Shown one piece after another: positions 60,786 to 64,000 of a DNA stretch of 64,000 bases. The position numbers were made by a program, and so were the translations under genes. The notes beneath the pieces were generated by a model that was given only the letters and a program-made list of their open reading frames with translations, was not told the DNA's origin and made no database searches. How positions within the stretch are numbered: the first letter of the stretch is position 1; each line of letters begins with the position of its first letter. Source of the stretch: Sulfuricella sp. (lineage in GTDB: Bacteria > Pseudomonadota > Gammaproteobacteria > Burkholderiales > Sulfuricellaceae); contig JAQTNE010000006.1 in NCBI GenBank assembly GCA_028713975.1, forward strand, positions 98,614 to 162,613, in the 5' to 3' direction.

Positions 60786-61439
60786 TCATTCGGCGCAATA
60801 ACGATTGCGCCCTACGCGGGCTTGCTCCTCAATGATAGGCAAATCCTCGCGGCGACGGTCGAGTCCCTCCAGCACCTTGAGTGCCGCGTAGGCATCGTTT
60901 GCCGCGTAGAGCAATTGCTGCCGCGTGAGTTGATGCTGTGACCAGTTGGAGGTGGTGACTTTACGCGACTTGGAAAACCGCTGATTAAACACCAAGCCCA
61001 CCGCCGCCCGAACGCCCATGTGCTTCTGGTAACCGTCCATGCCGAACACCGTATTGAGATCCACCACACCGCCCAGTTTGATGCCCAGTTTCGCGAAGAT
61101 ATGCCCGCGATCCGATTTAAGGTCGAAGCCGACTTTGATGACCTGTTCCGATTGCAGCAATTCAATCAGAAACGGATGGCCCTCAGTTTGATGCAGTTGA
61201 AACAAGTAGGCCTTGTCGAGCAAGGCAAACTGCACCAGGTGCGGCCCTTCGCTAACATCGCCCATGACAAACGTCGGCTTTGATTCGGTATCGAACCCAA
61301 CGACGCCGGTAGCCTTGATCTCGTCAGCGGCGGAAGCGAATTCCTCCCTGCTTGCCGGAACATGGATGCGCTCCAGCGTGAGGCCAACAAACGGTTCCAG
61401 TAGGGCGATCTGGGCCTTGGTCGGGGCGGGTTTTTTCAT
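60786..61439 (-). CDS. 3'-5' exonuclease domain (RNase D/WRN-like) protein
   Basis: VVGFDTESKPTF; VKVGFDLKSD; YAANDAYAALKVLEGL. Confidence 0.9.
   Translation of the reverse strand: MKKPAPTKAQIALLEPFVGLTLERIHVPASREEFASAADEIKATGVVGFDTESKPTFVMGDVSEGPHLVQFALLDKAYLFQLHQTEGHPFLIELLQSEQVIKVGFDLKSDRGHIFAKLGIKLGGVVDLNTVFGMDGYQKHMGVRAAVGLVFNQRFSKSRKVTTSNWSQHQLTRQQLLYAANDAYAALKVLEGLDRRREDLPIIEEQARVGRNRYCAE
60792..60815 (-). repeat. Inverted REP-like hairpin with 5' GTAG, inside the exonuclease 3' end
   Basis: Minus strand GTAG-GGCGCAAT-CGTT-ATTGCGCC; encodes ...VGRNRYCAE*. Confidence 0.7.
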
Positions 61440-61455: not shown

Positions 61456-61529
61456 TATTAACGTTGTGCTTGATTGCAAGACCCACTCCGAGTCTCTCAA
61501 GGAGGTAATTGTGACCTGCCCCTGATTTT

Positions 61530-61567
61530 TTAAAAAGTATTAGATATTTGCCGCAAATATCTAATAC
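61530..61567 (-). terminator. Intrinsic terminator overlapping the 3' end of the SIR2-STAND gene
   Basis: Minus strand GTATTAGATATTTG-CGG-CAAATATCTAATAC followed by TTTTTAAAAAATC; perfect 14-bp stem. Confidence 0.8.
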
Positions 61568-63854
61568 GATTCTGGCCAAACTGTTGCTCTGCTTGATTAA
61601 GTAGAGCGGCAACATGCTGGGCGATTTTTTCTGGAAATTTCCTTTGACAAATAGTCTTATGATTTCGAATAGAGTTGCCAAGCCCTCGAACAGCAACATC
61701 GAATGGGTGTATTTCCATTCTGCGACGATTGCTTGATGCAGCAATCGCGCGGTCAACGACATCCAATGCCTCGTATGTGTAATGCTCGACATCAGAATAA
61801 TTCGTGGATTTTTCGGCGGCGCAAAAGAGGACTTTCGCATATGTTGTCAATGTATGAGGGTGCTCCTCAATGCCTACGGCATGCTGAGCCCATATTTTTG
61901 CTTGTTCAATATTGGTGTCAAGTGACATTAGTGCTCGCTGCTCCCAGTAGCGACTGTTCCACGCATTTTCTGGTTGAGCTTTTTCGAAGAATTCCTCCGC
62001 CCTAGATGGCAACATCTGACGTACGCAACGATCATAATTCATTAGCCGTGCAGCCAATCCGGATTCCGGTGTTCCACGCATTATGGTTTTTCTATTTACA
62101 TAAGGTGAAAGTGCGCGCTCCAAACCTAGCAAATGCTCAAACCGTTCATCCTCATTCAATTTCTGTATCACATGTTCCGAAACAATTCGATGACGGGTAA
62201 CCAAATACTCGGTGGAGGCATAACGAACAATTCCTTTTAGATCGTTGTGTAGCGTCTTAAAAAAAAGTGCTGTTGAAATATTTGATGCTCTTGTTACTAC
62301 GGCTACTTTAACCGGCTCCCCAACGCTATGAGCAAAGGCGACGCAACAATATATTTTTTTTGCATCAGCATTAAGTTTTTCATATTCAGAACGGATAACA
62401 GTATTAAATTGCCCTATTGCCCCACCAGCCTCGACAATAGCTGAAATTAACTGCTTTGCAGCCATCCGTTGTGCAAGTTCGGCGTCACCCAAACCTGCAT
62501 TTGCCCCCAGCCGTCCTAAACGTCGCAATTCACCGGCCAAAGTGAGTGACTCTGGCTGTGTTAAAGCCTGTAAATCAACGCGAGTAACCTGTGCATCACT
62601 ACAAACTGATTCAAAGTAATCTAAACGCGATCTCCGTAAAGCTCCCAATAAGATGCAACGTTTTCCTTTCGCTTTCAAACCATCAATAAGCTGTGCTATT
62701 TGTGGCGCATGCTCATCTAAATTGTCAACTAGTAATATGGGCGTGTCTGACATTGAACTTAGTACATTTGTTGCAGCATCTTCGACCAGTCTCTCGTTGG
62801 CAGAATAGTGAAAAACTGTATATTTTAGGCGCGCTAGCTCCAAACCAACCCGTAGAAGTGCGGTACTTTTTCCTTCCCCCGCAGCAGAGTTGATTTCCCA
62901 TATTTCGGGAGCATTAGAGCTTGTATTTGAGATATATTCTTGAATATCTTTAATTAAGAGTCGTTCAGTGGTTCGAATTACATCCTCATTATTCTTGATG
63001 GAATACCATGTTGGTTCTGTACCATTTAGCAAGTGAAGCGGCTCAAGAGGAGTTGGTAGCGTATCTTCTTCTATGTATGTCCATTGCCTAAAGAATACCC
63101 TTGTGGTTTTGTCGTCAAGAATGGTTGTGAGTTTTCGACGCAAATTATCGCCATCCAATAGTAAATCAATTGGCCCTTTTCGATCAGTAACAAGGCCATC
63201 CAAATAGGCCAAGAATGTTTCTGATTCTGCCTCAATAGGAATAAGACCAAAACGATTGCATAGCGCAATCACTACAGCGTCGACGACCTTGGTTACAAAT
63301 AATGATGGAGCTATCTGCCGTGTTTCAGGCGTCAGTCCTTTTCGAGTAGCCAAGCATGCTTCTAAGTCTGGTTCATCTAAAGTACAGCCGATAATTATGA
63401 AAGGTTTCGAAATAAGTTCATCAGATAACACAGGAAACCACGTATACCCACCAGAACTAGTATCACCATATTCTTCTGAAGAAAAAACAAATCCGTGATC
63501 GCGTTTTTTAACGGAACCATGCAGGTGAATTATCGGTAATTCATCGGGGTCTTCCGGGGTTTGGAAGGGATCGCGAAAGGTTAAGAAATTTGGGTTTTGG
63601 AATTTTGGGGTTTTTAAATAACAATCGTTGAGTACGTCATCAATATTAAAGGTGTAAATTGACGACCATACAAAATGAGAAATTAGGCGCGTTCTGACTG
63701 CTGCCTCACAACCAGAAAATCTCTCAAATAAGAAATCGGATAGTTTTTCTTTGGGTTCAACTGCACCTGCTAGTTGCGTTAGCCTATAGTTGTTTGGAAG
63801 GCTAAATTTATTTGAAATCTCATTTGCAAGCTGATTCCCAATAGGTAATTGCAT
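61530..63854 (-). CDS. SIR2-like / STAND-type P-loop NTPase / TPR-like protein (candidate Avs-like antiphage defence gene), probably 5'-truncated
   Basis: SIR2 motifs TFNIDDVLND and IIHLHGS; Walker A-like EINSAAGEGKSTALLRVG; Walker B PILLVDNLDE; helical repeat C-terminus; AT-rich versus neighbours. Confidence 0.8.
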   Translation of the reverse strand: MQLPIGNQLANEISNKFSLPNNYRLTQLAGAVEPKEKLSDFLFERFSGCEAAVRTRLISHFVWSSIYTFNIDDVLNDCYLKTPKFQNPNFLTFRDPFQTPEDPDELPIIHLHGSVKKRDHGFVFSSEEYGDTSSGGYTWFPVLSDELISKPFIIIGCTLDEPDLEACLATRKGLTPETRQIAPSLFVTKVVDAVVIALCNRFGLIPIEAESETFLAYLDGLVTDRKGPIDLLLDGDNLRRKLTTILDDKTTRVFFRQWTYIEEDTLPTPLEPLHLLNGTEPTWYSIKNNEDVIRTTERLLIKDIQEYISNTSSNAPEIWEINSAAGEGKSTALLRVGLELARLKYTVFHYSANERLVEDAATNVLSSMSDTPILLVDNLDEHAPQIAQLIDGLKAKGKRCILLGALRRSRLDYFESVCSDAQVTRVDLQALTQPESLTLAGELRRLGRLGANAGLGDAELAQRMAAKQLISAIVEAGGAIGQFNTVIRSEYEKLNADAKKIYCCVAFAHSVGEPVKVAVVTRASNISTALFFKTLHNDLKGIVRYASTEYLVTRHRIVSEHVIQKLNEDERFEHLLGLERALSPYVNRKTIMRGTPESGLAARLMNYDRCVRQMLPSRAEEFFEKAQPENAWNSRYWEQRALMSLDTNIEQAKIWAQHAVGIEEHPHTLTTYAKVLFCAAEKSTNYSDVEHYTYEALDVVDRAIAASSNRRRMEIHPFDVAVRGLGNSIRNHKTICQRKFPEKIAQHVAALLNQAEQQFGQNRIRYLRQISNTF

Positions 63855-63871: not shown

Positions 63872-64000
63872 TGACTGAGCTTCCCCCGAAAAATAGTCTT
63901 CCAAGAGTGACGTAAAATATGACTCACATTGGAAAGGAAGACGATGAAAATCCCGAAGCAGGAATACACCGCCGAGTTTAAGGAACTGGCGGTCAAGCGA
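63872..64000 (+). mobile_element. Left end of an IS3-family-like insertion sequence with the start of orfA (ATG 63944)
   Basis: Candidate terminal sequence tgactgagcttcccccgaaaaatagtc; RBS ggaaaggaag; ORF MKIPKQEYTAEFKELAVKR... typical of an IS3 OrfA/HTH N-terminus. Confidence 0.75.

Follow-up and report, generated by a model that had tools for sequence, protein, structure and literature searches.

A gene close to the end of a 64,000-nucleotide stretch of DNA from Sulfuricella sp. (hereafter the window) raises the question of whether it encodes a working antiphage protein and, if so, to which of the known systems it belongs. The initial annotation described its 774-aa open reading frame as an intact, horizontally acquired, NAD-depleting defence protein of the Avs5 or DSR type that lies next to an IS. 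We find that the locus very probably is an Avs5-type SIR2-STAND antiphage gene that has been inactivated by transposition. The parts of the gene that are present in the window, and the hairpin at its end, are as follows.

61530..63854, minus strand: 3' part of the IS-interrupted SIR2-STAND (Avs5-like) gene, 774 codons, defined by the ORF call, its translation and homology to the L003 protein described below
63339..63662, minus strand: remainder of the SIR2_2 domain, residues 65-172 (Pfam PF13289, 1e-11), with TFNIDD (N70, D72) and HLHG (H112)
62622..63029, minus strand: nSTAND_NTPase5 P-loop domain, residues 276-411 (Pfam PF25199, 2e-21, 76.8 bits); alignment columns place Walker A AAGEGKST, Walker B ILLVDN and a conserved Arg407 within it
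61530..62621, minus strand: C-terminal all-helical region, the presumed sensor, from the AlphaFold2 model of the L003 protein and the EfAvs5 profile match
61537..61567, minus strand: intrinsic-terminator-like hairpin that overlaps the last codons, with a perfect stem of 14 bp and TTTTT after it

Both the SIR2_2 and the nSTAND_NTPase5 scores of the window protein exceed the Pfam curated cut-offs. The SIR2 and P-loop motifs named in the initial annotation are confirmed where it had placed them, and an alignment of relatives shows conserved columns at TFNIDD, HLHG and Walker A AAGEGKST. The 774-codon frame thus contains the Walker A, Walker B and conserved Arg of a STAND module, as expected of Avs5 in the broad sense. 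The TPR-like repeats fared less well, for the C-terminus is helical in the L003 model but a profile scan found no match to TPR families in either the window protein or the L003 protein, such matches being confined to longer relatives of 1046-1055 aa. The 31-bp self-complementary hairpin has a fold z of -3.5. The AT-rich composition is real, as the gene has a GC content of 42% against 57% for the rest of the window, and same-sized stretches sampled elsewhere in the window range from 0.53 to 0.60, none being below 52%.

Although the frame comprises 774 codons on the minus strand as first described, it does not represent a whole gene. Homologues begin about 32 residues earlier and the missing segment is supplied by another contig of the same genome, which is why we rejected the 774-aa ORF as a complete gene. 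Specifically, the first ~30 codons (MIPNNHLDDVKNNIRAGRYSLLLGAGFSVV, including GAGFS) are found at the start of contig C11, while the open frame of the 3' part runs on past the ATG at 63854, an internal methionine, up to the junction with an IS. The end of the window is also the end of its contig (C6) and falls inside this IS3-type element.

63873..63875, minus strand: 3-bp target-site duplication, GTC on the gene strand, whose second copy adjoins the right end of the IS on C11
63876..64000, plus strand: left end of an IS3-type element (TGAGCTTCCCCCG...) and the start of its transposase orfA (ATG 63944), running off contig C6

The boundary of the element was set by identity with other copies that begin exactly at 63876. 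The last 125 bp of the window are identical to C20:3-127 (100%) and are 87% identical to C13:45555-45679. On C11 the MIPNNHLDDVKNNIRAGRYSLLLGAGFSVV segment abuts TGAGCTTCCCTCTG, the right-hand terminus of an IS of this kind, and a profile built from relatives independently matches both gene halves in this genome, one on C6 and the other at C11:130-216. At the junctions, the 5' half on C11 ends in ...GGTTTTTCTGTAGTC next to TGAGCTTCCC and the 3' half starts with GGAAGCTCA next to GTCAGTAAAAACGGG, so that the flanks across the insertion read ...TCTGTAGTC, the IS and GTCAGTAAAAACGGG, with GTC duplicated. A 3-bp target duplication is typical of IS3-family insertions. GTC is absent from the flanks of the other IS ends on C11 and C20, which are GGA and CAC; a pairing of C20 with the other C11 end as a second insertion looked doubtful, the flanks failing to match (CAC versus GGA). 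The pairing of the two gene halves crosses a contig break and is inferred, no read or contig spanning the IS. The element is inserted in the 5'-terminal part of the gene, with the GAGFS motif on one side and the SKNGKG segment on the other. The IS therefore lies within the gene rather than beside it, and this copy has no single uninterrupted frame that carries all of the motifs, with TFNID and HG in the window ORF and GAGFS solely in the C11 fragment and in intact relatives.

The interrupted protein can be reconstructed by comparison with its nearest relative, a 77% identical protein on contig L003 (JAHFRC010000003.1) of a Nitrosomonadales MAG. The L003 protein starts upstream of the window ORF with MMIPSTYLDDVKSNVHAGRYSLLLGAGFSAESKNGKGVKLPIG and continues uninterrupted over the IS site (...LLGAGFSAESKNGKG...); it is N-terminally complete and is cut by a contig end at residue 754, whereas the relatives L009, L010 and L040 are complete. 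Differences between the 3' half in the window and L003 number 358 at third codon positions versus 123 and 80 at the other two, an excess which indicates that the protein was under selection and functional until recently. Every full-length relative scanned has the order SIR2_2, nSTAND_NTPase5 and a further C-terminal region, and those that were aligned keep the N-terminus as well as the catalytic Asn, Asp and His columns, with a sub-branch (L010, L011, L040 and L041) in which NG replaces HG. Relatives are also located on plasmids. Among viral contigs, a single-sequence search for close relatives gave no match, and a search with the family alignment recovered 16 loci. One of these (L023, IMGVR_UViG_2887072968_000002) is an 808-aa SIR2-nSTAND5 homologue of 29% identity in a predicted prophage, where its neighbours, named by reading their translations, are portal-, protease/capsid- and small-terminase-like genes. 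Another relative, of 1046 aa (L005:316-3456), has the order SIR2, nSTAND5, TPR and cold-shock OB-fold, which is the core order of SAMD9 without AlbA and with a canonical Walker A.

Because the IS has parted the GAGxS segment from the remaining SIR2 sequence, this copy has probably lost its activity. Of the SIR2 Rossmann fold, the translatable remainder is missing the first strand and the phosphate-binding loop, and the window copy is therefore most likely an inactive remnant; the claim of an intact NAD-depleting protein is not supported. The assembly is a draft of 25 contigs and 89% completeness, so individuals with and without the insertion could coexist, and the gene might be intact in much of the population, the IS being a minority or reversible state at which the assembler happened to break. 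Contig C6 does end at the IS, and the 774-codon remainder is fully open, its freedom from stops and frameshifts indicating that the insertion was recent. However, each half was assembled on its own contig together with an attached IS end, which means that reads of the IS-bearing form predominated there, and we regard widespread intactness as unlikely. There is little likelihood, by our estimate, that the truncated 774-aa protein is instead expressed from an IS-borne promoter and retains some role, such as that of a NADase-dead sensor or decoy. The STAND and C-terminal regions are intact, with an in-frame ATG at 63854 and a terminator-like hairpin of their own, but the conserved GAGxS segment is gone, aligned full-length relatives all retain the N-terminus, and both the promoter and the expression would be hypothetical.

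Other alternatives concern what the gene encoded before it was broken. A STAND regulator without a defence role, its SIR2 domain degenerate, would fit the regulatory roles of other STAND-repeat proteins and the presence of 8bob, a maltose-system regulator, among the fold matches. Retention of the catalytic Asn, Asp and His columns, the occurrence of relatives on plasmids and in a predicted prophage, and the variability of the chromosomal site, where restriction, HEPN and TA-type genes are found, make such a regulator improbable. A sirtuin defence protein of the DSR2 or ThsA type is the least probable reading that we weighed. ThsA does give the best raw PADLOC matches (3.5e-7 for the window protein and 6e-11 for L003), but these span only the SIR2 domain, and the best matches by full-length profile and by fold are to Avs5.

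The unbroken protein may be supposed to act as its better studied counterparts do, for which sensing by C-terminal repeats, nucleotide-dependent STAND activation, oligomerization and NAD+ hydrolysis by SIR2 have been described (PMC12931631, together with the EfAvs5 and AVAST5 filament entries). The C-terminal helical repeats would sense a phage component, upon which the ATP-loaded STAND module would drive oligomerization, into filaments in the case of EfAvs5, and the SIR2 domain would then hydrolyze NAD+ and thereby halt phage production. By this analogy, members of the HG/nSTAND5 branch to which the window gene belongs may likewise hydrolyze NAD, form filaments and protect against phage.

The chromosomal surroundings support the view that this is a horizontally acquired accessory defence gene. 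On C11, upstream of the 5' fragment, there is a toxin-antitoxin pair, HigB-like toxin and HTH antitoxin, and farther upstream ettA. The neighbour on the other side is in the window.

60786..61439, minus strand: next gene downstream, a DNA_pol_A_exo1 3'-5' exonuclease (RNase D-like), by profile match

No homologue of this exonuclease was found in 11 other genomes of the genus, and we therefore used ettA synteny to compare sites rather than an exact empty site. In loci of the same genus (L082-L090), the region downstream of ettA contains GmrSD_N (NsnA-like) in two genomes and elsewhere Mrr-type restriction, NYN-OST with HEPN, HEPN, HDOD or nothing similar. It is possible that this variable spot is a defence hotspot. 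Downstream of ettA, its 3' end recurs as additional partial copies at L003:6871-6915, L003:7649-7874 and L082:3670-3804, and a second ettA 3' end is present in genome G371. The L003 copy of 226 bp is immediately upstream of the SIR2-STAND gene and is 89% identical to ettA of the window's genus versus 84% to L003's own ettA, which suggests from sequence similarity that the cassette was transferred between relatives together with an ettA end. Additionally, similar short motifs flank the cassette, GGGGCAGGTCAC just after the gene (window 61511-61522, minus strand) and GACCTGACCCC on C11 immediately ahead of the 5' fragment. No integrase was noticed at the ettA-side cassette.

A second locus in this genome has the same IS. 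At C20:1-3000 (L020), an identical left end adjoins an open frame that matches JetC from about residue 560 on, its C-terminal half, with JetD next; the other, N-terminal half was not located. With jetC cut short at this IS end, Wadjet is apparently a second defence system to have been broken by the same IS. A broader proposal, which we hold tentatively and consider somewhat more apt to fail than to stand, is that the HG-type branch (the window gene, L003, L009 and the prophage L023) forms a separate Avs5-like SIR2-nSTAND5 clade of Nitrosomonadales and related proteobacteria, with a phage trigger of its own and movement between species via the ettA 3' end, and that one IS has switched off both SIR2-STAND and the Wadjet jetC here.

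What seemed to be a complete candidate defence gene is thus reinterpreted as split by an IS, with its missing piece located. For functional work, the N-terminally complete L003 protein and the wider SIR2-nSTAND5 family provide better test material, while the ettA-side spot, taken with the same IS in Wadjet, offers a small and checkable case of defence-gene turnover in one lineage.

Among known systems, the closest counterpart is EfAvs5 (PDB 9jap), a clade-3 Avs5 (PMC12931631). A profile of the relatives has 9jap as its best PDB match (E=1.7e-35) over SIR2, STAND and the C-terminus, and hhalign against three EfAvs5-type plasmid proteins gives 99.9% over 678 columns (E=2.7e-32). The L003 AlphaFold2 model (pLDDT 82.6, pTM 0.78), in which the C-terminal third is all-helical, likewise has 'Helical structure of EfAvs5(SIR2-STAND)' as its best Foldseek match (9jap, 5.6e-23), then the AVAST5 filament 9nc9 and human SAMD9 (PDB 9zjs, 5e-15, TMq 0.44). 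TM-scores between the model and EfAvs5 are low (0.31), perhaps because the domains are arranged differently in the model and in the filament form. The Avs5 half of the original assignment is thus borne out by full-length profile homology and fold, while the DSR half is disfavoured. Three motifs, TxNxD, Walker A and GAGxS (the last a contact of NAD+ in sirtuins that PaAvs5 also has), are required for PaAvs5 or contact NAD+ or ATP in it (PMC12931631); the unbroken family keeps all three. Differences from EfAvs5 include an identity of about 16%, the IS in the window copy, and HG in the window protein where EfAvs5 homologues have NG, a replacement seen in about half of Avs5 proteins (PMC12931631). 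The STAND module also differs. Avs5 is reported to have nSTAND3 (PMC12931631), whereas the window protein is clearly nSTAND_NTPase5 (77 bits) with nSTAND3 unlisted, and EfAvs5 homologues match both models weakly, at similar scores that are below the nSTAND5 cut-off.

The Avs5 models of NCBIfam (NF041814) and PADLOC (PDB 9nah/9nc9 filament) share the SIR2 domain and overall fold with the window family, without a sequence match beyond SIR2. Scores of 25.4 bits for the window protein and 35.8 bits for L003 are far under the curated whole-protein cut-off of 1000 bits, and over 369 genomes of the class no protein scored above it with the NCBIfam model. These models give no score even to an EfAvs5-type protein that matches 9jap at 98% identity in the compared stretch, and therefore describe one branch only. 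PaAvs5-1, by its published description (PMC12931631), resembles the window family in domain order and motifs, and shares NG with L010, L011, L040 and L041 and its Walker A, GPAGSGKT, with L010, but is reported as nSTAND3.

The likeness to DSR2 and ThsA is restricted to the SIR2 NADase domain, which is as far as the sequence matches reach. DSR2 fuses SIR2 to a long helical region, and ThsA carries SLOG C-terminal to its SIR2, a sensor of a different kind; neither is known to have a STAND NTPase. The window protein has an nSTAND NTPase and, like L003, no PADLOC Dsr2 match, this model matching only longer relatives over their SIR2 part; matches to Thoeris ThsA end at the SIR2 domain, and no SLOG domain was found in the window protein. 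SAMD9 and SAMD9L combine a SIR2-like domain, a STAND-like P-loop and helical repeats in a similar manner, but that family is defined by a P-loop with GGT/S and an AlbA domain (PMC5445408), while Walker A here is a canonical GKS and no AlbA match was found in the window protein or in the relatives scanned. As judged from profile homology and the predicted fold, the unbroken protein belongs to the Avs5-type SIR2-STAND proteins, broadly defined, and to a branch with a clear nSTAND5 module. The system is of a known kind, to which the window gene adds a member.
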